In this document: positions 2,451 through 64,000 of the stretch, in pieces | Layout: each line of letters starts with the position of its first letter | Position numbering within the stretch: the stretch's first letter is position 1 | Assembly: GCA_964035575.1 (NCBI GenBank) | Contig: OZ037925.1 | Span: 434,001 to 498,000, forward strand | Direction of reading: 5' to 3' | Length of the DNA stretch: 64,000 nt | Source: Rhynchopus sp. YZ270_cl-10 | Taxonomy: Eukaryota > Euglenozoa > Diplonemea > Diplonemida > Diplonemidae | The notes under the pieces: model-generated | What the model was told of the DNA's origin: nothing | Databases searched by the model: none | What the model saw: the letters and a program-made list of their open reading frames with translations, nothing else | Program-made: the position numbers and the translations under genes

Positions 2451-4442
2451 TCAGCTCAAGGAGAACGTCCGTCGGTGCTCTGTGTCCATGTCTGCCCCTG
2501 CAGCAATCAGCAACTGCACAACGTCTGTGTGATTTTGCTCCACCGCTAAGTGCAATGCAGTGTTGTTGTTAGCGTCTCGGTGATTCACATCCACCTCTGG
2601 CAAACCCACAAGATAGCGCACAGTCTCGGTGTGTCCAAAATACGCAGCAATGGTAAGACACGTGTCACCATCGTTATTTGTGGCACACACTCCTGCACCT
2701 GCTTCAACCAACATCTTCACAATTTTGAGTACTCCTGATTGACAAGCACAGTGCAGAGGTGAAGACCCACTGTTCTTCATCTCGATGTCTGCCCCTGCAT
2801 CAATCAGCAACTGCACAACGTCTGCGTCTCCCTCTCCCGACGCACAGTGCAATACAGTGTTGTTATCAGAGTCTCGGTGATTCACGTCGACCTCTGGCAA
2901 GCCCACAAGATAGCGCACAGTCTCGGTGCAGCCACAACTCGCTGCAAGGGTAAGACACGTGCTTCCTCCGTTGTCTGTGTCACGCACTCCTGCACCTGCT
3001 TCAACCAACATCTTCACAACGTCGAGTGCTCCTGAATCACAAGCACAGTGCAGAGGTGAACACCCATCACAGTTCTTCATCTCGATGTCTGCCCCTGCAT
3101 CAATCAGCAACTGCGCAATGTCTGTGTGATTTTGCTCCACCGCCCAGTGCAATGCAGTGTTGTTGTCACCGTCTCGGTGATTCACATCCACCTCTGGCAA
3201 GCCCACAAGATAGCGCACAGTCTCGGTGTGTCCACAATTGGAATACACCGCAAGGGTAAGACACGTCCTGCCATTGTTGTCTGTGACACACACTCCTGCA
3301 CCTGCTCTAACCAACTTCTTCACAACGTCGAGTGCTCCTGACTCACAAGCATAGTGCAGAGGTGAACACCCATCACAGTTCTTCATCTCGATGTCTGCTC
3401 CTGCATCAATCAGCAACTGCACAGCGTCTGCGTCTCCCTCTCCAGACATATAGTGCAGTACAGTGTCGTTGTCACCGTCTCGGTGATTCACATCCACCTC
3501 TGGCAAGCCCACAAGATAGCGCACAGTCTTAGTGTGTCCATATTCCGCTGCAACGGTAAGACACGTGTCACCACCGTTGACTGTGTCACACACTCCTGCA
3601 CCTGCTCCGACCAACTTTTTCACAACGTCGAGTTGTCCTGATTCACAAGCACAGTGCAGAGGTGAACGTCCATAAACATTCTCTGTCGCTATGTCTGCCC
3701 CTGCATTAATCAGCAACTGCACCACATCTGCGTCTCCCTCTCTCGACATATAGTGCAGTGCAGTGTAGCCGTCAAAGTCTCGGTGATTCACATCCACCTC
3801 TGGCAAGCCCACGAGATAGCGCACAGTCTCAGTGTGTCCACTATCAGCCGCAAGGGTAAGACACGTCCTTCTTCTTTTGTCTGTGACACGCACTCCCGCA
3901 CCTGCTTTAACCAACATCTTCACAATGTCGAGTGCTCCTGATGCGCAAGCAGAGTGCAGAGGTGAACGTCCGTTCTCATCCTTTGTCTCGATGTCTGCCC
4001 CTGCATCAATGAGGACGCGACACACTGCAGGGTCTGACCACATCGCCGGACAGGAAATATCTACCTCACCTACGTGGTGCTCGGACGCTTGTGGTACAAA
4101 GGCCACGTTCTTGCAGACGGACCTCCAATGCTGCAAGAGGACCTCCGTGCACGCAACGTGGTTTGCGTGGACACACTCACTCAGCAAGATCCCAAAGCCC
4201 ACCTGCGTTGTCTCAACATGCGGAAGAAGCAGTGCGAGGCATTCATCGTGGTTCCCTCTGCATGTCTCGTGCGCAGCATCGAAGACAACTGTTTCGCCGT
4301 ATGTGGGAAGCTTCTCAAGGGCCGCCCGCACGGCAGTCGTGTCGCCCTTCTTGACAGCCTCCACCAAGACCTCCTCTGCAGAAAGCTGTCTTCTCTTTCG
4401 TGGGTTCTCATCCTGTGTGCTGTCTGCGTGTCGCTTCGGCAT
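2451..4442 (-). CDS. Ankyrin-repeat protein 1
   Basis: I start at the ATG of MPKRHADSTQDENPRKRRQL (4442), not an upstream in-frame ATG candidate, because the paralogue at 6545-7645 begins identically there. The product is 663 residues. The basic N-terminus (PRKRRQ) could be a nuclear signal. Residues about 20-190 are a helical region conserved with the paralogue, and about 190 to the end is ankyrin. The ankyrin part is built from a super-repeat of three ankyrins, about 99 residues: GADIE-K-G-SPLHCACESG, then TCLTLAA-GHTETVRYLVGL, then PEVDVNHRD-TALH. About five super-repeats are present plus a partial one. Ankyrins bind proteins; the partner is unknown. The last codons (EHRRTFSLS) are out of frame with the paralogue's ENTDGRSP because of a 2-base difference, so the C-terminal tail has changed. 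The repeat unit is nearly identical at DNA level, implying recent expansion. Confidence 0.85.
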   Translation of the reverse strand: MPKRHADSTQDENPRKRRQLSAEEVLVEAVKKGDTTAVRAALEKLPTYGETVVFDAAHETCRGNHDECLALLLPHVETTQVGFGILLSECVHANHVACTEVLLQHWRSVCKNVAFVPQASEHHVGEVDISCPAMWSDPAVCRVLIDAGADIETKDENGRSPLHSACASGALDIVKMLVKAGAGVRVTDKRRRTCLTLAADSGHTETVRYLVGLPEVDVNHRDFDGYTALHYMSREGDADVVQLLINAGADIATENVYGRSPLHCACESGQLDVVKKLVGAGAGVCDTVNGGDTCLTVAAEYGHTKTVRYLVGLPEVDVNHRDGDNDTVLHYMSGEGDADAVQLLIDAGADIEMKNCDGCSPLHYACESGALDVVKKLVRAGAGVCVTDNNGRTCLTLAVYSNCGHTETVRYLVGLPEVDVNHRDGDNNTALHWAVEQNHTDIAQLLIDAGADIEMKNCDGCSPLHCACDSGALDVVKMLVEAGAGVRDTDNGGSTCLTLAASCGCTETVRYLVGLPEVDVNHRDSDNNTVLHCASGEGDADVVQLLIDAGADIEMKNSGSSPLHCACQSGVLKIVKMLVEAGAGVCATNNDGDTCLTIAAYFGHTETVRYLVGLPEVDVNHRDANNNTALHLAVEQNHTDVVQLLIAAGADMDTEHRRTFSLS

Positions 4443-4719
4443 TGTGTGTCTGTGTATTGTTGCTGTCTTTTGTGTTGACTTCTTTTTGTGCAGATGTTGT
4501 GGGGAGAGAGGACGAAGAACACACATGCAACACACCCTGTGAGGGAACGGAACACGTGGGCACATCACACACAACCACAGCCACCTCCACGAGTCCCTGG
4601 GCAACGCTCAAAGAGGCTGGCGGAAGACGTCCACCCTCGATAACGGTTCAAACGGTGAATAACAGCTGTCACATGAATAGCATTTTCTATTTCTATTTGT
4701 TTTGCCTTGAGCCACCCTC

Positions 4720-4727
4720 CCCCACCC
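4720..4727. repeat. Target-site duplication, left
   Basis: CCCCACCC abuts the left inverted terminus of the element at 4728-6201 and is repeated exactly at 6202-6209. Eight bases is the hAT target length. Confidence 0.75.
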
Positions 4728-4762
4728 CAGGGGTACCTGTAACGAGGGGGGTAAAAACGGCC

Positions 4763-4832
4763 CGGCCCCCGGCCCCCGGCCCCCGGCCCCCGGCCCCCGG
4801 CCCCCGGCCCCCGGCCCCCGGCCCCCGGCCCT
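4763..4832. repeat. (CCCCCGG)n array
   Basis: About ten copies of a 7-bp GC-only unit near the left end of the hAT-like element. The G-rich strand could form quadruplexes. Confidence 0.9.
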
Positions 4833-5013
4833 TGGTTATCAAATGGAGAAAATCACGTGTATGTATACACGGTATACACAACGCAACCTTGTGCGCGGGT
4901 TTTTGGGTCATTGTTGCCCACAAACGGGCCGGCATTTGCATTCCGGAATCCGTCCGGCCAGTGGTGGGGTCAATTTGACGAAATGGACAAGTTCTCGTTT
5001 TTGGTCAATTTTT

Positions 5014-5320
5014 GCAGTATACACAGTATACACAGTATACACAGTATACACAGTATACACAGTATACACAGTATACACAGTATACACAGTATACACAGTA
5101 TACACAGTATACACAGTATACACAGTATACACAGTATACACAGTATACACAGTATACACAGTATACACAGTATACACAGTATACACAGTATACACAGTAT
5201 ACACAGTATACACAGTATACACAGTATACACAGTATACACAGTATACACAGTATACACAGTATACACAGTATACACAGTATACACAGTATACACAGTATA
5301 CACAGTATACACAGTATACA
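5014..5320. repeat. (CACAGTATA)n satellite
   Basis: About 34 perfect copies of a 9-bp unit with the palindrome GTATAC at each junction. Open frames through it are repeat artefacts. Confidence 0.97.
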
Positions 5321-5494
5321 CAGTGTTCACAGTGTTCACAGTGTTCACAGTGTTCACAGTGTTCACAGTGTTCACAGTGTTCACAGTGTTCACAGTGTTC
5401 ACAGTGTTCACAGTGTTCACAGTGTTCACAGTGTTCACAGTGTTCACAGTGTTCACAGTGTTCACAGTGTTCACAGTGTTCACAGTGTTCACAG
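5321..5494. repeat. (CACAGTGTT)n satellite
   Basis: About 19 copies of a 9-bp unit that differs from the preceding array at two positions (GTGTT for GTATA). It is directly contiguous with that array. Confidence 0.97.
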
Positions 5495-5504
5495 GGTATT
5501 GGGA

Positions 5505-5971
5505 GTACAGTACAGTACAGTACAGTACAGTACAGTACAGTACAGTACAGTACAGTACAGTACAGTACAGTACAGTACAGTACAGTACAGTACAGTACAG
5601 TACAGTACAGTACAGTACAGTACAGTACAGTACAGTACAGTACAGTACAGTACAGTACAGTACAGTACAGTACAGTACAGTACAGTACAGTACAGTACAG
5701 TACAGTACAGTACAGTACAGTACAGTACAGTACAGTACAGTACAGTACAGTACAGTACAGTACAGTACAGTACAGTACAGTACAGTACAGTACAGTACAG
5801 TACAGTACAGTACAGTACAGTACAGTACAGTACAGTACAGTACAGTACAGTACAGTACAGTACAGTACAGTACAGTACAGTACAGTACAGTACAGTACAG
5901 TACAGTACAGTACAGTACAGTACAGTACAGTACAGTACAGTACAGTACAGTACAGTACAGTACAGTACAGT
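5505..5971. repeat. (CAGTA)n satellite
   Basis: About 93 perfect copies of a 5-bp unit. It shares the CAGTA core with the adjacent 9-bp satellite. All frames are open because the unit has no stop in any phase on either strand. Confidence 0.97.
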
Positions 5972-6201
5972 GTAAAAAACTCAAAAATCCCTCTCGCGCC
6001 TTGGCGAAAAATATTTTTTTTAAAAAACCGGCTTTATTTGAAAGATTGAGATCCGCTGACCCCAAAAAACAAAATCGGCCCCAGCCAAGAATAGCTATAC
6101 AAAAGCAGAATAACGGCGAGAGCATTTCCCACGTAATTTCTTAAGGGATTTTTTCTCGGCCCAGAGGCCCGGCCCGCGGCCCCACGTTACAGGTACCCCT
6201 G

Positions 6202-6209
6202 CCCCACCC
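6202..6209. repeat. Target-site duplication, right
   Basis: CCCCACCC, identical to 4720-4727, directly after the right terminus of the element. Confidence 0.75.
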
Positions 6210-6544: not shown

Positions 6545-7645
6545 TCAAGGAGAACGTCCGTCGGTGTTCTCTGTGTCCATGTCTGCCCCTGCAGCAATCA
6601 GCAACTGCACAATGTCTGTGTGATTTTGCTCCACCGCATAGTGCAACGCAGTGTCGTTGTCACCGTCTCGGTGATTCACATCCACCTCTGGCAAGCCCAC
6701 AAGATAGTGCACAGTCTCGGTGTGTCCAAAATACGCTGCAAGGGTGAGACACGTGTCACCATTGTTGTCTGTGTCACGCACTCCTGCACCTGCTCTAACC
6801 AACTTCTTCACAACGTCGAGTACTCCTGAAGTGCAAGCACAGTGCAGAGGTGAACGCCCGTCACAGTTCTTCATCTCGATGTCTGCCCCTGCATCAATCA
6901 GCACCTGCACAACATCTGCGTCTCCCTCTGCCGACATATAGTGCAGTACGGTGTGGTTGTCAGCGTCTCGGTGATTCACATCCACCTCTGGCAAGCCCAC
7001 GAGATAGCGCACAGTCTCAGTGTGTCCAAAGAACGTAGCAAAGGAATACGCTGCAAGGGTAAGACACGTCCTGCCATTGTTGTCTGTGACACGCACTCCT
7101 GCACCTGCTTCAACCAACATCTTCACAATTTTGAGCGCTCCATAATTACAAGCACGGTGCAGAGGTGAACGTCCCCTCTCATCCTTTGTCTCGATGTCTG
7201 CCCCTGCATCAATGAGGACGCGACACACTGCAGGGTCTGACCACATCGCCGGACAGGGAATATCTGCCTCACCTACGCGGTGCTCGGACACGTGCGGGAC
7301 AAACTCCTCATTCTTGCAGACGGACTTCCAATGCTGCAAAAGGACTTCCGTGCACGCAACGTGGTTTGCATGGACACACTCACTCAGCAAGATCCCAAAG
7401 CCCACCTGCGTTGTCTCAACATGCGGAAGAAGCAGTGCGAGGCATTCATCGTGGTTCCCTCTGCATGCCTCGTACACAGCATCGAAGACAACTGTTTCGC
7501 TATCTTGGGGAAGCTTCTCAAGGACCGCCCGCACGGCAGTCGTGTCGCTCTTCTTGGCAGCCTCCACCAAGACCTCGTCTGCTGAAAGCTGTCTTCTCTT
7601 TGGTGGGTTCTCATCCTGTGTGCTGTCTGCCTGTCGCTTCGGCAT
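6545..7645 (-). CDS. Ankyrin-repeat protein 2
   Basis: ATG at 7643-7645 begins MPKRQADSTQDENPPKRRQL, close to the start of the gene at 2451-4442. The product is 366 residues. The helical N-terminal region (about 20-190) is almost identical to the paralogue, but only about two of the 99-residue three-ankyrin super-repeats follow, with one short insertion (AAYSFATFFGHTETV). It ends ENTDGRSP then TGA. The sequence beyond the stop (CTTGAGCTG on the minus strand) is shared with the paralogue, so both genes derive from a duplication that included the 3' flank. The upstream leader (ACACAAACACACA) is also similar. Super-repeat number is the main difference, consistent with unequal exchange inside the array. 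Function is unknown beyond protein binding. Confidence 0.85.
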   Translation of the reverse strand: MPKRQADSTQDENPPKRRQLSADEVLVEAAKKSDTTAVRAVLEKLPQDSETVVFDAVYEACRGNHDECLALLLPHVETTQVGFGILLSECVHANHVACTEVLLQHWKSVCKNEEFVPHVSEHRVGEADIPCPAMWSDPAVCRVLIDAGADIETKDERGRSPLHRACNYGALKIVKMLVEAGAGVRVTDNNGRTCLTLAAYSFATFFGHTETVRYLVGLPEVDVNHRDADNHTVLHYMSAEGDADVVQVLIDAGADIEMKNCDGRSPLHCACTSGVLDVVKKLVRAGAGVRDTDNNGDTCLTLAAYFGHTETVHYLVGLPEVDVNHRDGDNDTALHYAVEQNHTDIVQLLIAAGADMDTENTDGRSP

Positions 7646-9170
7646 TGTGTGTTTGTGTATTCGATATCTTTGCCTTCGGGGTGGTGGCGGTGACAGCCTG
7701 ATGGCAACCCCCAAAAGAGTGCATGCCCTGACAAGAACGTTTCGTGCGTGTGGCGTGTGTGCGACATGATTGCTGCATTCCGTGATGCGCGGAAAGCAGC
7801 TCTCGGTGAGGCCAATCAAAGTCTCTGTCGCCAACCTCACCTTCAAGAGAGAAGGTGGCAGACAAAGAAAGCACGAGCAAAACAGCTCAACAAATTGCTC
7901 CCTTGCGAGCGAGCTTGAGTACCCCTCACGAGCATGCACAAGCCAGAGCACGTGAATTATTTTGTTCAGAACTGGGCTGTGTTGGAAAGGAGAGCCCCTT
8001 GGGCAGCTGCACGGAAACACCATCAAACCCACGTCCGCTGTTGTCACGACATGTGTAGGAGCTAAGCTTGGGGGTTTCGATTCTGCTGTTTCTGCGGAAC
8101 ATACAGCAAAGGAGGAGCTGACGTAGTGCAGCGTCAGGACAATCCCGTTTTTTCAAAGCTATGGTCCATAGGTACTTTTTCCATTCAAAAAAAGAGAAAG
8201 CACACAAAAGGACGTAAAAACACATAGGAGACAAAAAGGATGGGGGACAGTTCTTTTAATATTTTTTTTTGCAACGCCTGTGTGCTTTTCCCCCCCCCGG
8301 TGCTGGGTGGAGGGGGCTTGGTGGTGTTCTGCACCCCATTTCACCCTCCCCTCGCTTTTTTACTTGATATTCACCCACATCATTTCAGCGCTGCCGTGGC
8401 AGTGTGGCCGCTATAGTTGTTCTATCCAGAGTAAACCCGGGACCGTGTCCCGATTGGTGCCGTTTTTTTACATCTAGGATGGGTGGGTTGCGGAAAAAAC
8501 GGAGGTCACCTCCCCGTTGTCTCCCAGGTACAAGGCATACAGGCAGCACACCACCCAGTATACCCTTTCTCTTCTTTCGTTTCCCCCTTCCATCCCCAGC
8601 ATACCCCCTTTTTTTTTTAACTTTTATCTTTTTTTTCCCCGTGAAGGAGTTCACGCCTTATTGCTGGTTTATTTTTTCCAGGATATTTTCAAAAATAGAG
8701 GGGTGCACTCGGTACGTCAAAGAGGAGGTTGCACAAAATAGTCTGACCGTCTCAAGAATTCGTGTTAATTTAAAAAAAAATAGGGGGATGAATTGAAAAT
8801 GTGTAGCTACCTTCTTTCCTCTCCCTGTCTTTTTTTTTTTTGCGATTTGGCAGATTTGTTCTTCATTTATGAACGAAGAATGAAAGGAAATTTTTAAAAA
8901 GGATGAACCCAAGACGTGCTTAGTTTCACCTTGAAATAAAAACTAAGCGTGGATGGTACATTAACCCTCAACTTATTATATACTTTCAATTCCGCACAGA
9001 AAGAATAAGAGAAAGGTGCAACCACCTGGACACACATTCATTTTAACTTTTTTGGTATACCCGCTGGAAATTTTGTTTGATTTTTTAGGCTGTTATAAGA
9101 TAACACGATTTTTTTTTTGGGGGGGGGCAAAAAAAAAAAAAAACGGAAAAACAATGTGCAAAGCAGGGTA
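7646..9170. other. Intergenic, no gene seen
   Basis: A/T-rich sequence with many mononucleotide runs. Short open frames here lack domain-like sequence. No recognisable repeat apart from a weak AAGATGAACCCAAG word near 8900 that recalls module B. Confidence 0.4.
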
Positions 9171-15319: not shown

Positions 15320-18300
15320 TTATTTAGAAGTTGGGTGATACGCATCTGACTGTGGACGGGTGACAGTTTGGGGTTTTGTTGCTTGAGACTGAACGTGTGT
15401 TGCACCGGAAGCGGTGTCTTGGTTGATTATCATGCTCAGCCCCTTGCCCCCACCAATTACAACGAGCTTTGGGTTGCATCCCTCCGAGAGTGTGCGTGTA
15501 GCCTCGATACCACGCCACCGAAGAAGCCGTTCCGTCACCCCCGAGGCCACAATGGTCTGGTAGGACGCAATCCCCTCCGCACGGATGGTGTTCTGCTCGG
15601 CCACAAGCGTCTCCTTCTGCAGCACGTACTTCATCTGCTCTGACTGCTGCTCGTAGGCCATTCTGTGGAAGTGAATGATTTTTTTTTAGAAAAAGATCGG
15701 GTCTTTTGTGCGCTCAAAGCAGGAAAACAAAAAGGTGAAAAAAAAAAAAATTTGTGTTAAACTGAGGTTGTTGCGGTTAATTGAGTACTCAAAGAAACCA
15801 AGCAAGCTTCTGTCTTTTCTTTTTTTCAATCCGTTTTGTTTGCCCTGCAGCGCTGCCTCCAATCTTTTTAGAATTGACAACAAGTTGTTTTATCAAATGT
15901 AGTACCTCGTTGGCACATTTTTATTTGGGAAGGGGGTAACATTATGCGGTTTCAAGCTCTGAACCCTTTTAAAAAAAATGAAGATTTGCACAAACTATAG
16001 CAACACAACCCACTACATTACTCCAACACCATCAAAAAAAGGGGAAAGCGAATGATAAAAGAAAACTTCGCCGTCCACCGCAGGGGGCTCTGCTCAAATG
16101 TCTCTGCACACAACTTATCATTGCATACTTCTTTTCAATGGACATCTCAAGCGAGGCTGGGAGCAGGAGTTTGTTGATAAGTGCAAGCTCGACAATGATG
16201 CCACGCGACTTGACTTGCTTCTGGATTCCTGAGAGCAGATCGCGGGTCATGGACTCACGCGCACTGGCTGAGTAGAGCTCCTGCGACGCATGCGCAGACG
16301 TCACCGAGCGGATAGCGGACTGAAACTCAGGAAGCAGAATCTTCTCCTCAAAGTTGGTGCCCACAGTACGGAAGAGCTCGACTGCCTTAGAAGGGTCCAA
16401 GCGGTTGATGCAGGACGCTGCTAGGTTCACGTTGACACCCTCCCGTGTCGGCACCTCGTCCGCAAAGTGCAGCACCGAAGAACGCACGCTCATAAAGTTC
16501 ACTGTCGAAATGAACGGCGACACAAAATGCATTCCGTTTGCCAGTGGTTCGGATTGTATGCTGTAGGGGGGGAGAAATGATTATGTCATAATATACCAAT
16601 TATATCGGCCACACCAATTATACTTTCTATGAATAGAAGGTATAATTGGTGTGGCCGACCCCAAAATAGCAGAAAATAGCAGAAAGTAGCACCTCCCTTT
16701 AGCCGCACCAAAAAATCCAGATGCCCAGAACAACAGAAAATAGCACAAAAAAAAAAAAAATAGCACCCCCTTTCAGCCACACCAATAGGGTCTAAATGTA
16801 CTCTACTAGGGGAATGAGAAAAGTTGAATAACGAATGCCAACAGCCACCTGGTTTTGCCTTGAAATATGATGGTGCTAAAAAAAAAGTGGTTTAAATCAG
16901 GGGAGGAGCTTGGGGGTTAAATCGGGTCAGATTGACCCGATTTCCTTCGGCCCCATGGAAAAAAACGGGTCAGGGCAAAAAAAAAAAAAAAAACTATAGA
17001 TTTTTGAGGGGAAAATCCAAAAAATAGGGTACTCTACTTGTCGCATGAGGGGGTCTGAGAAGGATGAGGAACTACTATGTGACCCCACCGCGACGAGCAC
17101 GAAGCTCAATGAAGGCAGAATGCCCTCAAACGCACGCTCCACCCCGATCAAACCCGAACCCAAGAGGGATGCCGAACTCGACCTAGCCGTTGGTTACTGG
17201 CGCGAGCTGACGATCCAGATATTGGATCGACTCGCTGGGTGACACACCAAAAGAGGGGCTCAGACAGTGACAAGTGTTGCCGGGGATACGGAACGTTCTC
17301 CGAAGTTTGCTCGAAGGGTACACCTGCCCAGAGAGAGTACCTGAACTGGCGAGGGCCTATACACACATTGCACACCTCCATTGCGCAACCCTACCTTGAT
17401 GACCTCATCGCCAGTGTCAAGGGCAACATGCATTCCGCGGGGATGGTGCAACACTTGTGTATCATCAACGTGTACCATTTTGTGAAACGCGCCTTCTCAT
17501 TCTGCATGTGTTTGTCTTCACAAGAGCTTTTCCGCCGAAGGCGGAAAAGCTCGGGACCTGACCCGATTTAACAGAATTTGACCCGATTTTGCCCCAAACC
17601 CATATTCCAAGCTCCTGCCCTGGTTTAAATACCACCAAAAAAAAAAAAAAAACTCCACTAAACTCCACCAAATTTTCTGGCAAAATCAGGTGGTACAGTC
17701 TTAGTAATTAACTTTTTACAAAAACCTTTTGGGTCTGAACTTTCATACAAACCTTTTGGGCCTACACTCTCCACTCTCTCCAAACGCCACAGTAGGTGAC
17801 CCTCACAGCCCTTTAAAGAACTGAGACAGGATGGAAAAAAAAAAAAAAAAAAGGGTAAAGCATGGGTGTTCCTAAGACGGAATACGAATACCACTTTTGG
17901 GATTGTGCACCTTTTTTTCTACAGGGATTCCCTTAGGGAAGAAAAAAAAGAGCAGACGGGTAACTAAGAGACTTTAGAACGGTCTTTTTCACTGAGTGAG
18001 GTGCCCGTGAACTGGGATGGAATGAAACAACACAAAAAAGACATTTTTCTCCTCGTAGGACGAACCCCCAAATAAAATTTTCGCCTCCGGCGGACACCCC
18101 CTTCCTCCACTGTGTACTGTGTACTGTGTACTGTGTACTGTGTACTGTGTACTGTGTACTGTGTACTGTGTACTGTGTACTGTGTACTGTGTACTGTGTA
18201 CTGTGTACTGTGTACTGTGTACTGTGTACTGTGTACTGTGTGGTTATGCAGCCACGCCAATTTTTTTTAATGGTACCACCGCTGAATGCTCGGGTCACCA

Positions 18301-18636: not shown

Positions 18637-19330
18637 CCTATAACCCCCCTAAAACCCCCTTTTAGATATCTGTGTAAACTCCTGCAAGCGATGCAATGGT
18701 GGGGGGTATAAAGGGTAGTGTGTATGTGTGTTTTGATGACTAAATAGGGGTAATTCTTGCGCAGAATATGGCCCCAAAGGGAGTTTGAAAATGTTTTTTG
18801 TATGTTTTGAAAGTGATTTGTGCTCTGTTTAATTTTGCTTGATAGTTTTGTAGACGTGGAGTTGGAGAGGAAGGGTGCGTTACTTTGTATGAGATTACGA
18901 CTTATCCTCTTTAGAATATGGCCCCAAGGGAAGTGTGTGGTTTTTGATAACGGACTTAAAGTGGGTAACGCCTGAACGGAGTATCGCCCACTGTGTAGGT
19001 GGGTGTGTGTTTTCTTGAAAAAATAAAAAAAACTCCACCATTCCTATTATGGAACAAAGCATGTCCTGGAACAGCTCCAAGAAAATAGCTTTTTATGGGT
19101 ACCTGGGGTCTAAAGGGTTAAGAACTTATGAAAATCATGTGAGTGGGGGAATGCACAGGCCTTTTTTTAAAAAATAATGAACAATACGTTTTTCTTGGTG
19201 TTTTTTTTTCCCCCTCCTATGTTTTCGAAACTTTCGGTATTGGTGCGAGAACATTCTTTTTTTTTTTGCTTTTTTGCTTTGTTCGCATCGGTGTGGGGTG
19301 TGTTTTTTTTTTTGTTTTTTTTTTTTTTTG
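18637..19330. other. Intergenic, no gene seen
   Basis: Contains two similar GAATATGGCCCCAA words (near 18766 and 18912) and T-runs. No coding sequence recognised. Confidence 0.3.
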
Positions 19331-19335
19331 TTTTT

Positions 19336-19384
19336 TGAAAACTTGGTTGTATTAGTGTAGCCACCCGAGGATGAACTCCACTAT
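19336..19384 (-). repeat. Family D1 repeat, copy 4
   Basis: GAAAACTTGGTTGTATTAGT then CACCCGAGGATGAACTCCAC, directly preceded by a T-run on the plus strand, i.e. an A-tail on the minus strand. Confidence 0.8.
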
Positions 19385-19621
19385 TGTTGTTTGTTTTTCG
19401 TTTGTTTTTTTTTTTTGTGGTTCAGGCGTCGTTGGTCGTCCCAGCAAAAGAAAATCCATTGTGAGATGAACCTAAGCCACTCGACTACTGTAGTCAATAC
19501 AAGACCTATGAGAAGCCCAGTAAATATATAAAATAAGAGAGGGAACGGGGCTTCACCGCTGTTTCAGTGATGAACTTCCGAAACCCACTAATCTGTGCAC
19601 ATTTTCTTTTCTTTTTTTTTT

Positions 19622-44100: not shown

Positions 44101-44958
44101 GTTAAGTGCCTCATGATCGTTTTCTGCATCTTTTTTTTTTACAAAGAAGTGTGAACTCTAACCAAAGCAGGAAACATAAGTAGGGGTGAAATCAGGGTTT
44201 CCGCGAGGGCTAAAGCCAAAAAAAAAAAAAAAAGCAACAAACTTAGCCCATTCCTGATATTTTTTTGAGAAAAAATCCGTGTGCTTATGTCGGAAAAATT
44301 TAAGAAAAAAAAAACGAATTTCTGTCGGGCGACACCGACCACGATCCTCGACACTATATTACATACACACGACACACGTTTCATATATTTTTTTTGTTGG
44401 TGTTTTGAGAAACTGTTGAGATAGTACGCTTGCGTCTTTGTTGCTGTATTCTCGCCTGAGTTTGGCCTGTGATACTTCTTGAGCACATGTTCCACCCACC
44501 CCCATTGTGTTTTCCTCCGGGATTCAATGCTATTATGTGCCTGTTTAGCGGCGAAGCTAGCTATGAAAGGAGAAAAGAGGGGTTGAAAGAGTGCAAACGC
44601 CTCACCAAAAAAGGCGGTGGAAGTTTAAAAAAAGAGGGGGAAAAGGGAATGCGCAATGTGGTCCACTAAAGAGGAAAGAAAAAAGAAAGTATGTCAACAT
44701 ATGCAATCAATACATTGATAGCATAGGAGGGATCAATAAAAATGTTCCCCTTTTCAAAAGAAACAAAGATGAGCGAAGCACAGGGATTACGCAGTTCAAC
44801 GTGTTGAAACCAACACGTTCAACCTGTACAACGCAATGGGGGGGCTAAGCATCATAAAAGGGAGAGAGGGGGTGGGTCAGTTTTATGAAAAAAACTGCAC
44901 ACCCAAAAGTGGGAAGATTAGTGTCTACGCGAGAGACGCGATGACACCTTTTTTTTTT

Positions 44959-45007
44959 GAAAACTTGGTTGTATTAGTGTAGACACCCGAGGATGAACTC
45001 CACTGTA
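44959..45007 (-). repeat. Family D1 repeat, copy 9
   Basis: GAAAACTTGGTTGTATTAGT then CACCCGAGGATGAACTCCAC, after a T-run. Confidence 0.82.
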
Positions 45008-45100
45008 CCCAACTATATTTTTTTTTTGTTTTGTTCGTGTATTATAAATTGAAAACTATGACAACAGAAGGCAAGGAACGTAAGTGTGTTTTGTTTTTTT

Positions 45101-45661: not shown

Positions 45662-46135
45662 CGGAAACCCCGTTTTGTGGCATTTCCGGGCCAATCCCGG
45701 CTTGTGGTGGGGTATATACGGAAAAATGGACAAAATTTTAGTGACTTAAATTTTCGCAAAATATGAACCCATACTCGTAAACAAGGGTCATTTTCAGGAA
45801 AATTCGGAAAATTCCGAGATTTGGAAGCAATTTTTCTCCTGAAAATCAGTGGGTTTTCAGCCCCAAAACATACCGCGATTGGAATTTCCGGAATCCGTCC
45901 GCGCTGTGGTGGGGTCACTTTGCCGAAATGGCCAATTTTTTGGTTTTGGTCAAAATCCATGTGGGTAAAGAGGGCCAATGTAAATCCCACAGCCAGATTT
46001 TCTCTCCCTGATCCTGACGTCTTGCAACATGAAAATGCGCGAAAACACTGGCATTTGCATTTCCGGAATTCGTCCGTTCTGTGGTGGGGTCAATTTGCCG
46101 AAATGGACAAGTTCTTGGTTTTGGTCAAAACCCGT
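45662..46135 (+). repeat. Three degenerate copies of module M
   Basis: Copies begin near 45662, 45868 and 46045. Each has a GGAAT/CGTCCG-type word, TGTGGTGGGGT, GCCGAAATGG and TTTTGGTCAAAA or ACTTAAATTTT. The same module is in the hAT-like element at 4932-5012 and in the tandem array at 60272-61320. Confidence 0.65.
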
Positions 46136-51978: not shown

Positions 51979-53227
51979 TAGGGGGTTCCACGTATAAGGA
52001 AATCCTTAAGGACTTGCTGTCCAAAACCCATTTTTTTGAAATTTCGGTGAAGAAACCCACTAAAATGGGCGTGCCTGGCCGCAAATCGCCCTGGGGATCA
52101 CCCATATATCCCAATAAACCACCTGACGACCTTCACAGAGCATTTCTTGTCTAAAAAAAGTCGATTTTTTGTGAAAAAAAGCCCCAAAACTGCGTAACGC
52201 TCGCGTAACGCTTGGAGGCCAAAATTTTACACTTGCCAAGAAATTTCTCCAATCAGATAAAACTCCTTTTAAACACCCGAAAAACACTTCAGTCCACATC
52301 TTCTGGGGTCCCGGGGTGGAAATGTATGGTTTTTGCACCTTTTAGGGGTCCTGGGAGGGTCCCAGACGTATTCATGAGGGACGGAACCGCTTAAAATGCC
52401 CGAATTTACCTCTTTTTTAGGGTGCTTTTTCACCTTAAAAATTCAAAAAAAAGTTCTCAGATAAGCACAGAAGTGTCCAAACCCCCTCGGAACTACTCGC
52501 CAGACCCCCTGCGGGGTGGAGAATCATATTTGCGATCACTTTTTGGGCTATTTTGCCCAAAATAATCCCGTGTCCCACTTTTGTCCCACTTGTCCCAAAA
52601 TAGCCTAAAATACCCTATTTTGGGACAAGTGTAACAAAAGTGTAACATGAGGTTATTTTGGGCAAAATAGCCCAAAAAGTGATCGCAAATATGATTCTCC
52701 ACCCCGCAGGGGGTCTGGCGAGTAGTTCCGAGGGGGTTTGGACACTTCTGTGCTTATCTGAGAACTTTTTTTTGAATTTTTAAGGTGAAAAAGCACCCTA
52801 AAAAAGAGGTAAATTCGGGCATTTTAAGCGGTTCCGTCCCTCATGAATACGTCTGGGACCCTCCCAGGACCCCTAAAAGGTGCAAAAACCATACATTTCC
52901 ACCCCGGGACCCCAGAAGATGTGGACTGGGGTGTTTTTCGGGTGTTTAGAAGAAGTTTTGTCTGATTGGAGAAATTTCTTGGCAAGTGCTAAATTTTGGT
53001 CCCCAAGCGTTACGCAAGCGTTACGCAATTTTGGGGTATTTTTTCACAAAAAATCGATTTTTTTGAGACAAGAAATGCTCTGTGAAGGTCGTCAGGTGGT
53101 TTATTGGGATATATGGGTGATCCCCAGGGCGATTTGCGGCCAGGCACGCCCATTTTAATGGGTTTCTTCACCGAAATTTCAAAAAAATGGGTTTTGGACA
53201 GCAAAACGCCCTTGGTGGAACCCCCTA
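51979..53227. mobile_element. 1.25-kb foldback element
   Basis: Two arms of about 615 bp are inverted copies (51979-52603 and 52615-53227) around an 11-base loop CCTAAAATACC. Outer ends are TAGGGGGTTCCAC and GTGGAACCCCCTA. Both flanks read a 10-C run then TC, consistent with an 8-12 bp target duplication inside a C-tract. Arm identity is high, with a few substitutions and small indels. Each arm contains the same 92-codon open frame (MQKPYISTPGPQKMWT), with no known domain. No transposase present. Confidence 0.82.
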
Positions 53228-56713: not shown

Positions 56714-56846
56714 CAGGTACACAGGTACACAGGTACACAGGTACACAGGTACACAGGTACACAGGTACACAGGTACACAGGTACACAGGTACACAGGTAC
56801 ACAGGTACACAGGTACACAGGTACACAGGTACACAGGTACACAGGT
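56714..56846. repeat. (CACAGGTA)n satellite
   Basis: About 17 copies of an 8-bp unit, related by one inserted G to the 7-bp CACAGTA unit at 18109. Confidence 0.95.
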
Positions 56847-57330
56847 AAGTCGTGACAGGGCAACCACAGCCAACCCGCCAGTCACTGAGAAGTGACCAGA
56901 CAGTCCACTTGACAAACACAAAAGTGTCCAGTCACGTGGGGCATTCATGCACTGAGGAGATAAATGATCCAACAATTTACAAGAAAGCATTACTTAACCT
57001 ACTGCTGGAAGTTGCCAGGTCGTAGTAACACACAAAGTGTGCCTCCGTTCGGGAATACCGGATATTCTAGAGACCAAAAAGGCCTCTTCCGCTGGTCAAG
57101 GTATAACCGAGTGAACGGCCCAAGACCCCCGTGGAGAAGTTAAATGTTGTAATGCTATCAAGTACAAACTGCGACCACTGTCTTACCCTCCTCAATGCAT
57201 GGTGGAAGATGTCTTTGACAACAAACCGAGCTCTGATTATCAATCGTTAGACTCAGAGGAATGCCTGCGGTACAGGTATCAAACCCGGGGTGTTCACAAA
57301 AGAAAAAAAGAAAAAAAATCGCGATTTTTT
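56847..57330. other. Unassigned stretch of mixed composition
   Basis: Balanced base composition unlike the A/T-rich spacers. Short words such as CTCTGA/TCAGAG pair around 57233-57260. I tested it by eye for tRNA-like folds and found none convincing. No coding frame recognised. Confidence 0.3.
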
Positions 57331-60271: not shown

Positions 60272-61320
60272 AAAAAGGGTCCTTATTTGCATTTTTGGGC
60301 TCCGCCCGTGCAGTGGTGGGGTCAATCTCAAAAATTGGACAATTTTTTGACCACTTAAATTTTGAGAAATATGAGCCCGGTTCCTTATACGTGGGGCCCA
60401 TTTTCGGCTAAAATTTTCCTCAAAATCTGGTTTTGTAAAATTGACCCTTTACTCCCCCCCCACATCGATTTCAATACTATACCTTACTTCACCTACGGTT
60501 GCCCTTACAGGGGGGGTGAAGGAAGGTAAGTTGAAAAGGGTCCTTATTTGCATTTTTGGGCTCCGCCCGTGCAGTGGTGGGGTCAATCTCAAAAATTGGA
60601 CAATTTTTTGACCACTTAAATTTTGAGAAATATGAGCCCGGTTCCTTATACGTGGGGCCCATTTTCGGCTAAAATTTTCCTCAAAATCTGGTTTTGTAAA
60701 ATTGACCCTTTACTCCCCCCCCACATCGATTTCAATACTATACCTTACTTCACCTACGGTTGCCCTTACAGGGGGGGTGAAGGAAGGTAAGTTGAAAAAG
60801 GGTCCTTATTTGCATTTTTGGGCTCCGCCCGTGCAGTGGTGGGGGCAATCTCAAAAATTGGACAATTTTTTGACCACTTAAATTTTGAGAAATATGAGCC
60901 CGGTTCCTTATACGTGGGGCCCATTTTCGGCTAAAATTTTCCTCAAAATCTGGTTTTGTAAAATTGACCCTTTACTCCCCCCCCACATCGATTTCAATAC
61001 TATACCTTACTTCACCTACGGTTGCCCTTACAGGGGGGGTGAAGGAAGGTAAGTTGAAAAGGGTCCTTATTTGCATTTTTGGGCTCCGCCCGTGCAGTGG
61101 TGGGGTCAATCTCAAAAATTGGACAATTTTTTGACCACTTAAATTTTGAGAAATATGAGCCCGGTTCCTTATACGTGGGGCCCATTTTCGGCTAAAATTT
61201 TCCTCAAAATCTGGTTTTGTAAAATTGACCCTTTACTCCCCCCCCACATCGATTTCAATACTATACCTTACTTCACCTACGGTTGCCCTTACAGGGGGGG
61301 TGAAGGAAGGTAAGTTGAAA
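60272..61320. repeat. Four tandem copies of a 261-bp unit
   Basis: Copies start near 60277, 60538, 60800 and 61061 (GGGTCCTTATTTGCATTTTT). They are almost identical: a T-to-G change in the third copy is the main difference. Each carries module M (GCAGTGGTGGGGTCAATC, ACTTAAATTTTGAGAAATAT) and ends in a hairpin CCTTACTTCACC ... GGTGAAGGAAGG. The array ends 173 bp before the transposase-like ATG. Confidence 0.95.
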
Positions 61321-61493
61321 AAAGAAGAAAAAAAAAAAGGGGGTGGGGGCCCCTTTCCCAGTCTGCGGGCTGTATACGTGTATATGCATATGCTCTAGGC
61401 TTGTATTCTTTGAAATTCTCTACAAACCCCCCTCAACCCCCTACCCTGCCTCGTACCACACACCCTGCAGACTTAATTTCACTAATTTCACTA

Positions 61494-64000
61494 ATGTCTG
61501 CCTCCAACTCCACACCCGTCTCCGCCATGAAGAAAAGGAGGGTGGTTCGTGAGGATGTGGAAGACCCCGACGGCCTCTGCCGCTCCTACAACGAGTGGAC
61601 GAAGGAGAGGCTTAAAAAAAAAAATATAAACAGGTCGAAATTCCTGAAAGCGCAAGCGCGTCTCCGGAAGTTTATCAACTTCCAGTCCATGACAGTACCC
61701 CTACTGCATGCGACCCTGAAGACGTTTGACACCCTCATTGCCGTCGACAACGTCAACCCCCCAGACAGGAGGAAGTCAGTCCGGGAGCTGCAGTTAGAGG
61801 CAGTGAATGAGGCTGAGGAAGAGATTGAGACGCAGGTGAATATCGTCGTGGTGCCGGGGGTCGTGCAGCAAGCCGATGCTGACATCCTGCTTCGAGCCAT
61901 CGTGGCTGGCGAGGAGGAGTATGATGCGGAAGCGAAGGAAGAGGCACTAGAAACCTTCCAGGCAGGAGTTGAGGCAAGGGTAAAACGGTTGAAGGTCGTG
62001 AATGCATACGATCGAACGGTGTATAAGACCAAGTGCGCGTATCCCGCGATGCTGAGCCACGAGGTTGAACGGTACTGCGGTCTCACCACCTCCCGCAACG
62101 AGCGTGCCCCTCCTGTTGTGTTTCCCACCCCCGACGAGTTGCTCCACATCCCGGCCAACCTCTCCAACCTCTCTGGCACTCTTGCAACTGAACAATGGCT
62201 ACAAGCCACGGAAAACGGGTTGGTTTGCCGTGCTTGCAAGATTTTTGACCGTAGTGACCGAGCACAGCACGCGCTGGTGAAACAACCGTTGCCATACGAT
62301 CAAGTCGCCAACCTCCTCATCAGTCGAAGTGACTCGCACGTGAAATCTCAGAACCACATCGAGTATTGGAAGAGGTTCGAAGACCGTGAGCGGAGCCTCA
62401 GGGACGGCAGCACAGGGTCGTTGGGGAAGATGTTTAAAGCAGGGAACGCTATTCAGGACAAACAAAAGCGCCTCCTCGCGACCCAGCACCTCATAGGGGC
62501 GTTCCACCACGTGGTCTTCTTGGCCAAGAATAACTTGGCTCCTTTCCACCTCTTCTCCAAGATGCACAACAGACAGGCCCACTTTAACCAAGAGACCATA
62601 GATTTTCTCTGTCAGCGTAATAATTACACATCGCATGATATACACCAGCAACTGTTGGAGATTGTGGACGCTGAAGTTAAAAAAAGGACCCTCCGACGTC
62701 TGCAAGCTTCCTCCGCGCTTGGCCTCCTTCTAGATGAGGCACAAGATCGCACCGCCAAGGCCCAGTATGGGGTCGTGTACAGGGTGCTCGAAGAAAGTGG
62801 TGTGAAGGAGGTGTTTTTTGGGATGAAATCCCTCAAAGCAAGTGGCAACGCGGAGAACATCGCTGCCCACATGAGGGACATGTGCCCGGAGGGACTGTGG
62901 CCGAAGGTGCTGGCGCTGGGAACCGACGGGTGCAACTGCATGTCGGGTGAATACGGTGGGTTGCAATTAATTTTACGACGAGACCGGTGCCCTTTTGCAC
63001 TCTGGTGCTGGTGTAGGGGACACCGGCTGAACCTCATTGCCCTGCACTCCGTAGACTCGTTTCCGCTGTTTAAGACTGCTTACAACCTCATCAGTGAAAC
63101 CTTTCGGGCTGTTTATCGGGGGAGGGGGGACAACAAAGGGAAGGTGGCTACGTTTCGCGACGCCGTGGCCGCATGTGCTGCAGTTGACCAGTTTGGGATG
63201 TGGCGTGAGAGAGAACTGTGCGAGGTGGGGACGACCCGTTGGGTGAGTCACGAGCGTGGGGCTGCTACGATATGTCTAACCCTTAAAGGAATCATCCAGA
63301 CCCTTGTGATTTTGGAGAAGAGCGATCTTGTCACGAGCTACCGGTCCCCCACTTCGCTCTGCTCCATCTTCCTCATCTCTGAACTGATGCCAATTCTCGG
63401 CAGGTTCAGCAAGTCGCTGCAGCAGGAGGAGCTGTGCTACTTCGAGATACCGGCGCTCACCGCCCACTATAAGGGGAAAGTGAGGAACCTGCGGGACAAT
63501 CCGGAGAACTACCCGACGTACTGGAGCTCGCACATCCGGATCAACGCCGCGTTTGAGGCGTTTGATCCTGAGAGCCGACCAGAGGAAATCGGTGGCTCTT
63601 TTGTGCGGGAGTTCCACTCGCAGTATGCGCTCCCCTACCTCACCCAGCTCGAAGACGACCTCGAGGAAATGCTGCAGGGGGCACCGGTTCTGGCGGCGTT
63701 TGGGGTGTATGACGTGAGGTGTACGTGGAGCCAGGAAAAGCTCGAGACAGAATTGGGTGTGCTGTGTGAACACTACGGAACGGGGAAGGACTTCACCGCA
63801 CAAGTAGAAGACTCTGAGGTCATTCGTCGGAGCCCCCCCTTTTTCTCGCAGCAAGTGATCTCCTCAATCAAGCACGAGTTTGAGGGTGTACTGAGAGAGC
63901 TGAAAAAACTCTCAGAAAAAATAAAATCCAAGAACTTTACTACAGTGACGTTGGCGTTTGTAAACGACGAGTTTCTGAAGAGTGCATACCCGTCAACCTC
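61494..64000 (+). CDS. hAT-superfamily transposase-like protein (ZNF862-like), 3' end outside window
   Basis: An open frame from ATG 61494 runs 835 codons to the right edge with no stop. It begins MSASNSTPVSAMKKRRVVRE. A Cys/His motif at about 244-290 (NGLVCRACKIFD ... RSDSHVKSQNHIEYWKR) looks like a zinc-binding DNA-recognition domain. The RNase H-like core shows LGLLLDEAQDRT (Asp 414), LALGTDGCNCMSGEYGGL (Asp 478) and CWCRGHRLNLIALHSV, including the hAT CxxH (Cys 507, His 510). The third acid and the C-terminal dimerisation region are not identified in the visible part. hAT transposases cut and paste with 8-bp duplications, so this gene or a relative could mobilise the elements at 4728, 16898 and 58989. 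It is the only plus-strand gene. It may be an active element or a domesticated gene; the visible frame is undamaged. Confidence 0.85.
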   Translation, partial: MSASNSTPVSAMKKRRVVREDVEDPDGLCRSYNEWTKERLKKKNINRSKFLKAQARLRKFINFQSMTVPLLHATLKTFDTLIAVDNVNPPDRRKSVRELQLEAVNEAEEEIETQVNIVVVPGVVQQADADILLRAIVAGEEEYDAEAKEEALETFQAGVEARVKRLKVVNAYDRTVYKTKCAYPAMLSHEVERYCGLTTSRNERAPPVVFPTPDELLHIPANLSNLSGTLATEQWLQATENGLVCRACKIFDRSDRAQHALVKQPLPYDQVANLLISRSDSHVKSQNHIEYWKRFEDRERSLRDGSTGSLGKMFKAGNAIQDKQKRLLATQHLIGAFHHVVFLAKNNLAPFHLFSKMHNRQAHFNQETIDFLCQRNNYTSHDIHQQLLEIVDAEVKKRTLRRLQASSALGLLLDEAQDRTAKAQYGVVYRVLEESGVKEVFFGMKSLKASGNAENIAAHMRDMCPEGLWPKVLALGTDGCNCMSGEYGGLQLILRRDRCPFALWCWCRGHRLNLIALHSVDSFPLFKTAYNLISETFRAVYRGRGDNKGKVATFRDAVAACAAVDQFGMWRERELCEVGTTRWVSHERGAATICLTLKGIIQTLVILEKSDLVTSYRSPTSLCSIFLISELMPILGRFSKSLQQEELCYFEIPALTAHYKGKVRNLRDNPENYPTYWSSHIRINAAFEAFDPESRPEEIGGSFVREFHSQYALPYLTQLEDDLEEMLQGAPVLAAFGVYDVRCTWSQEKLETELGVLCEHYGTGKDFTAQVEDSEVIRRSPPFFSQQVISSIKHEFEGVLRELKKLSEKIKSKNFTTVTLAFVNDEFLKSAYPST

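Follow-up and report, generated by a model that had tools for sequence, protein, structure and literature searches.

Between positions 4728 and 6201 of the window (the whole 64,000-nucleotide stretch of DNA analysed here) lies an element of 1474 bp that has perfect 17-bp inverted ends and is bounded by an 8-bp duplication. The end sequence, CAGGGGTACCTGTAACG, is exact both at 4728-4744 on the plus strand and at 6185-6201 on the minus strand; with up to 3 mismatches allowed, the window holds 2 matches, against 0.09 expected from shuffles. The target-site duplication, CCCCACCC on the plus strand, is identical on the two sides (4720-4727 and 6202-6209). Termini and duplication had both been reported in a preliminary description of the locus, and both stand exactly as claimed. 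The element sits between two similar minus-strand frames (2451-4604 and 6545-8047), of which the second contains ankyrin repeats according to Pfam and the first resembles it in a repeat comparison. Rfam returned nothing for the window at gathering scores.

Tandem arrays of four unit types make up about 1.02 of the 1.474 kb, in agreement with the earlier estimate of roughly 1.0 kb. On the plus strand, the left terminal inverted repeat is followed by 10.1 units of the 7-mer CCCGGCC (4761-4831) and by a dispersed module of ~85 bp (4931-5012), which is also found ahead of arrays at some other loci. Then come 34.4 units of the 9-mer CAGTATACA (5015-5324) and 18.9 units of a 9-mer variant, GTTCACAGT (equivalent to CACAGTGTT; 5325-5494), the two 9-mer arrays together occupying 5015-5494. 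A cassette junction, GGTATTGGG (5495-5503), leads into 93.6 uninterrupted units of the 5-mer AGTAC, equivalent to CAGTA (5504-5971), and a unique region (5972-6184) separates this array from the right terminal inverted repeat.

The window contains other repeats. Two perfect short arrays with similar-looking units, ACTGTGT (19 units) and CAGGTACA (16.8 units), lie at 18109-18241 and 56714-56847. A large palindrome at 52014-53204 has 590-nt arms that are 96% complementary and spaced by 11 nt, and a dispersed motif of ~50 bp, GAAAACTTGGTTGTATTAGTGTAGACACCCGAGGATGAACTCCACTA, is seen for example at 19316-19388 and 44938-45010 (direct-repeat family D13, 9 places).

Copies, plan and target sites of the MITE-1 family

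The preliminary description had proposed a genome search for inverted pairs of the end sequence. In the genome analysed (152.4 Mb in 126 contigs), the exact end occurs 44 times, as 20 inverted pairs and 3 single ends, the rest belonging to a 21st pair with 1 mismatch in one end. With up to 2 mismatches, 76 matches are found, against 17 for the reversed pattern. The termini are thus not unique to the window, and the other copies bear the same kind of arrays at different insertion sites. The 21 pairs and the 3 single-ended copies, 24 loci in all, are referred to as MITE-1.

The members share one order: left end, CCCGGCC repeats, a unique left part closing with the module, and the CAGTATACA array, then a junction resembling GGGATTGGG, the AGTAC array, a unique right part and the right end. 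The pairs are 741-1528 bp long, except for L010 (3418 bp), which contains a nested insertion of 2,367 bp with its own 8-bp duplication, ATTGAGAT; L028 and L031 have additional sequence between the arrays. Arrays of at least 3 units of the 9-mer are absent from five of the 21 copies (L010, L011, L013, L024 and L027). The junction takes the form GGTATTGGG in the window copy, L025 and L032 and the form GGGATTGGG in 14 others, and it is missing from the remaining four (L009, L012, L015 and L028). Outside the arrays, none of the 21 copies has a transposase-sized frame, the longest being 139 aa. MITE-1 therefore has the properties of a miniature inverted-repeat family, in being short, lacking a transposase gene and comprising many similar copies with common ends. 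Helentrons are marked by Helentron ends and by the lack of a target duplication, whereas MITE-1 has inverted ends and 8-bp duplications. The hAT elements have short inverted ends starting with CAGNG, and the MITE-1 ends, which begin CAGGGGTA, fit this motif.

Of the 21 pairs, 20 have an exact 8-bp duplication and none matches over 9 bp, which bears out the hAT-type ends and duplication length of the first account. L015, the sole pair without an exact duplication, looks as if one C had been lost from a homopolymer. If no transposon were involved, the window feature would be an ordinary satellite that happens to lie between two inverted repeats, and the C-rich flanks do raise the odds of an 8-bp match: when the left flank of one copy is paired with the right flank of another, 30 of 420 combinations match, which is the chance level for such flanks. 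However, low complexity cannot explain agreement at exactly 8 bp in 20 of 21 pairs and at 9 bp in none, and coincidence on this scale is scarcely credible.

Insertion sites are of a distinct class. In 20 of the 21 copies, the left 8-mer resembles a C/G tract, one of its strands having no fewer than 7 pyrimidines and 5 C; the same holds for 2,397 of the 63,993 8-mers (3.7%) of the window, which served as the background. L016 is the only copy outside this class. Of the 20 exact duplications, 8 consist of the octamer CCTCCCCC or its complement. The C-rich strand of the target is the plus strand of the element in 11 copies and the opposite strand in 10. Comparison of the flanks of the 21 copies with the genome loci collected revealed no paralogous empty site.

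A candidate transposase and related elements

An autonomous relative is found at C17:941668. It is 3,715 bp long, has the ends CAAGGGTACCTGTAACT and ATTTACAGGTACCCTTG and the duplication CCTCCCTC, and contains an open frame of 923 aa; its left end occurs 14 times in the genome. Its ends agree with those of MITE-1 at 15 of 17 bases on the left and 14 of 17 on the right, and the first 75 bp of the MITE-1 right unique region resemble its subterminal region (76% over 79 aligned columns). The common ends and subterminal sequence relate MITE-1 to this element. The genome yielded no autonomous element whose ends are identical to those of MITE-1. A search with the 923-aa protein identified 14 copies, of which 7 can be read without a break from residue 1 to residue 923 and the other 7 are interrupted. 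Six of the latter are split around residues 362-366 by an insert, one of them also having a stop and another matching only from residue 27; the seventh is split near residue 780. In the one insert read (L037 2080-2388, G000:C11), the inserted sequence is 309 bp. Among the three left flanks read, the C17 copy lies in a C tract and those on C3 (GGTCCCAT) and C11 (CGGTGACC) do not, and the site preference of the autonomous relative may thus differ from that of MITE-1.

The 923-aa protein gave no relevant match in Pfam up to E 10 or among solved structures (best E 0.94), and its structure model, built from a two-sequence input, was too poor for use (mean pLDDT 33.7). Its only relative found outside the genome is DIPPA_13850 of Diplonema papillatum (42% identity over 64%). 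A diplonemid spliced-leader sequence had no match in the genome at up to 3 mismatches, and KIN17 returned just distant hits. When a profile of the 923-aa protein and DIPPA_13850 was compared with four hAT transposases that Pfam recognises in this genome, the match reached 88% (E 3e-6) and covered the catalytic part of the transposase. A local rerun gave 66% (E 5.6e-5), against at most 0.4% for 30 column shuffles and 0.2% for the reversed profile. On this profile comparison, the protein is tentatively described as hAT-like.

Partners for MITE-1 were also sought among the Pfam-recognised hAT families of the genome. Right ends were read for families A, E, F, G, H, I and K, with family D and families represented by single or truncated copies left out, and none equals that of MITE-1. 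Families E, H, I and K begin with CAGGG or CAGTG, and families A, F and G, as judged from the break of identity, begin otherwise. In the copies shown, A, G and I end beside C or G tracts and the other four do not. The transposase of the autonomous relative is the best candidate partner found for MITE-1, judging from ends and subterminal sequence; a close sibling may act in its place. A separate frame of 1008 aa with a hAT dimerisation domain overlaps the right end of the window, from ~62478 to 64000 and on (L060; G000:C93:497978-498133), and this domain was matched in 139 among 150 scored candidates in the genome. A sequence resembling the transposon end also recurs four times, 8.8-10.1 kb apart, on the 40.7-kb contig G000:C112 (L046, L047), which suggests a long tandem repeat.

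Two other families bear on the role of the arrays. One, a 213-bp relative, is present in three identical copies with ends similar to those of MITE-1; two of the copies have an exact duplication, and that of the third is offset by one G. Neither this relative nor the autonomous one contains arrays of the MITE-1 kind. The other family (L097, L098) has the ends CAGGGGCAGCTATA, a central CAGTA array and exact 8-bp duplications in both copies; its left end occurs four times in the genome, once within L031. The arrays might serve transposition, for example as clustered transposase binding sites, and be kept by selection: all 21 MITE-1 pairs retain a 5-mer array of at least 15 units, and the L097/L098 family carries a similar array between different ends. 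Such a function is very unlikely, however, given an autonomous relative without such an array, a 213-bp relative that has none and three identical copies, the absence of 9-mer arrays of at least 3 units from five MITE-1 copies and the position of the arrays, which is central rather than subterminal.

Array turnover and the cassette elsewhere in the genome

The unique parts of 20 MITE-1 copies differ by 1.34% on average and by 3.3% at most (L010, whose right part is interrupted, was omitted, and the 7-mer arrays were trimmed to three units). The 5-mer array, by comparison, has 21 distinct lengths in the 21 copies, from 15.6 to 135.6 units. Counted in the longest array of each copy, a measure that misses changes more than 2 units wide and takes no account of variant units at the edges, such as those of L016, interruptions number 0 in 7,546 bp of 5-mer array, against 22.6 expected, and 2 in 4,274 bp of 9-mer array, against 12.8 expected from the private substitution rate (28 in 9,335 unique bp). 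L011 and L013 are identical in 467 unique bp and have 5-mer arrays of 119.6 and 135.6 units, respectively. The window copy differs from L032 by 1 substitution and from L025 by 2, yet it has 18 full copies of GTTCACAGT, compared with one in each of the others; the variant array runs to ~19 units in the window copy and to ~2 in L025 and L032, and the variant was not found in the other 18 MITE-1 copies. It is probably a satellite caught while growing, loss in L025 and L032 being the alternative. The 7-mer array has 10 units in the window copy and 16 in L019; 17 copies have 3 units, and L010 and L031 have still fewer. Array lengths might partly reflect assembly errors. At each site, unequal exchange or slippage would alter the length of the arrays and homogenise them at a much higher rate than that at which the unique parts change.

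The arrays also occur outside MITE-1, in a cassette of the form [CAGTATACA]n-GGGATTGGG-[AGTAC]n. Its exact junction, GGGATTGGGAGTACAGTACAG, is found 204 times genome-wide (reversed control 0), and 10 of the 24 MITE-1 loci contain it; among 100 of the 204 places listed, 3 are in MITE-1. Starts of the CAGTATACA array number 219 (control 0). There are 176 same-phase ends of ACAGT arrays (control 2), 22 of which lead into the MITE-1 right part, and one locus may contribute several to either count. The preliminary description had pictured the transposon as moving satellite seeds around the genome. This idea survives in that every copy plants an array able to change, but the numbers of junctions inside and outside the family do not support transposition as the main route of spread.

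Ten arrays outside MITE-1 were sampled at roughly even steps among 100 listed ACAGT ends. The junction GGGATTGGG lies between the 9-mer and 5-mer arrays in L101, L106 and L108, is shortened in L103 and is absent from L100, L102, L104, L105, L107 and L109. With matches accepted up to E 0.01, none of these ten arrays has the module next to it, and the module-plus-array arrangement is thus not the general form. Four further junction loci include three with the module (L110, L111 and L112) and one without (L113); eight more loci were picked for matching MITE-1 parts and are no guide to frequency. The 31-bp core of the module, GTGGTGGGGTCAATTTGNCGAAATGGACAAG, has 1,162 exact copies genome-wide (control 0). 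The module stands ahead of arrays at some loci and alone at others, and within the window it is seen at 4931-5012, 45878-45956, 46050-46130 and 60285-61132. At 60273-61321, four tandem units of 261 bp, 99% alike, each contain a diverged module.

The flanks of the cassette are diverse. Seven right flanks without mutual match (E up to 1e-3) were distinguished among the cassette loci compared, namely those of MITE-1, L080, L101/L103/L113, L106, L108 (which looks like a foldback element), L110 and L111/L112. On the left, MITE-1, L080, L110 and L111/L112 match one another over the module and a few bases (67-101 bp), and the L101/L103/L113, L106 and L108 groups match none of these. Further out, the left flank of L080 and the right flank of L101 have a 58-bp piece in common (83%), and the two groups may be parts of related repeats. 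The right flank of L101/L103/L113 recurs in L107 and L109 (156 bp at 90-92%), whose arrays are different; on the left, these two loci have no more in common with L101/L103/L113 than a 34-bp piece and a weak 82-bp piece. L031 is a MITE-1 copy with the left end of another family fused to it at the arrays, and L018 joins MITE-1 sequence at the module boundary.

These distributions bear on whether MITE-1 is the source of the satellites. The arrays could have been born inside MITE-1, those elsewhere being worn-out insertions that have lost their ends; single-ended copies that keep their arrays (L017, L018, L030 (one array 203 units) and the diverged L045) and the long 9-mer variant peculiar to the window copy would accord with such an origin. 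It is nevertheless improbable in view of the few exact junctions that lie in MITE-1, both among the loci and among the places listed. Moreover, in a comparison of 11 cassette-bearing or related loci outside MITE-1, the flanks of the other cassettes read match no MITE-1 sequence except the module, and the autonomous and 213-bp relatives are devoid of arrays. MITE-1 thus looks like one carrier of the arrays and not their source. Because these two relatives lack such arrays, it is more probable that MITE-1 took up a cassette already in existence than that the satellites arose within it, and it is from this that we infer the direction of transfer.

The window feature is accordingly best read, with a probability of about 0.8, as a member of a family of miniature hAT-type transposons that are not autonomous, are moved in trans and have captured a satellite cassette. 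A hAT-like transposase would move MITE-1 by cut and paste; an ancestor of the family would have captured a pre-existing module-plus-array cassette, and the family, in a recent burst, would then have taken it to new sites. Some loci have arrays that resemble seams where different repeats may have swapped ends, and the cassette could have entered its different flanks either by exchange at arrays or by separate capture by several families. A wider proposal, to be regarded as tentative and more doubtful than not, is that the composite cassette passes between unrelated transposon and repeat families, with the arrays serving as exchange ports for ends and cargo. It draws on the 204 junctions, the seven right flanks, the flank sharing of the L101 group with L107 and L109, the L031 fusion and the L018 joint, and is weakened by the shortness of the left pieces, the absence of the module at the ten sampled arrays and the oyster precedent for array sharing described below.

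Known systems and significance

Transposons with internal satellite arrays are already established, and array sharing between elements has been reported for the oyster. Cg_HINE of Crassostrea gigas are non-autonomous Helentrons with one or two tandem arrays at their centre; like MITE-1, they are dispersed through the genome and have related arrays outside the elements too (PMC7492417; PMC12628747). According to a review, different Helitron elements can have an array type in common and a single element can contain several types, a precedent for array sharing between elements (PMC12628747). Cg_HINE differ from MITE-1 in being Helentrons, described there without target duplication or hAT-type ends, and in having units of 140-180 bp on average, mostly in up to 5 copies, whereas the MITE-1 units are short. 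Each array cluster of Cg_HINE was also reported in 2020 to have one specific flank pair (PMC7492417), unlike the MITE-1 cassette with its seven right flanks.

Other parallels are closer in some respects and more distant in others. The Tc1/mariner MITE miDNA4 and the Xstir MITEs of Xenopus, as reviewed, share with MITE-1 an internal array of variable copy number, and capture of a pre-existing repeat has been proposed for miDNA4 as it is here, although miDNA4 belongs to Tc1/mariner and a single satellite is described for it (PMC9659126; PMC12628747). Lepidopteran MITE-like elements with (GTCY)n resemble MITE-1 in the hitchhiking of a short-unit microsatellite, but one unit type is listed for them, located in the 5' inverted repeat (PMC9659126), and not several central arrays. 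The DINE-type elements of Drosophila have, like MITE-1, a centre of tandem repeats flanked by two conserved blocks, and some of these repeats have turned into satellites; the elements are of the Helentron type, and the DINE-TR1 repeats are ~150 bp (PMC9957191). Pineapple Ac-mMITEs are likewise MITEs associated with low-complexity DNA, but there the microsatellite is the target (PMC8449440), whereas MITE-1 carries microsatellites as cargo and inserts into C/G tracts. The words hAT, microsatellite and MITE are absent from the main text of the Diplonema papillatum genome paper (PMC10161547). Within the wording and the collection searched, no hAT MITE with several short-unit arrays was found in the literature. 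MITE-1 is set apart by ends of the hAT type, by short units, by the succession of several arrays and by insertion sites in C/G tracts.

MITE-1 amounts to a replicated natural experiment, in which about two dozen copies combine near-identical unique sequence with different array lengths at known sites. It makes it possible to measure how, and how fast, satellites expand and how they travel from one repeat family to another. If the arrays do act as exchange ports, elements would swap ends and cargo at satellites, and satellites would gain many carriers.
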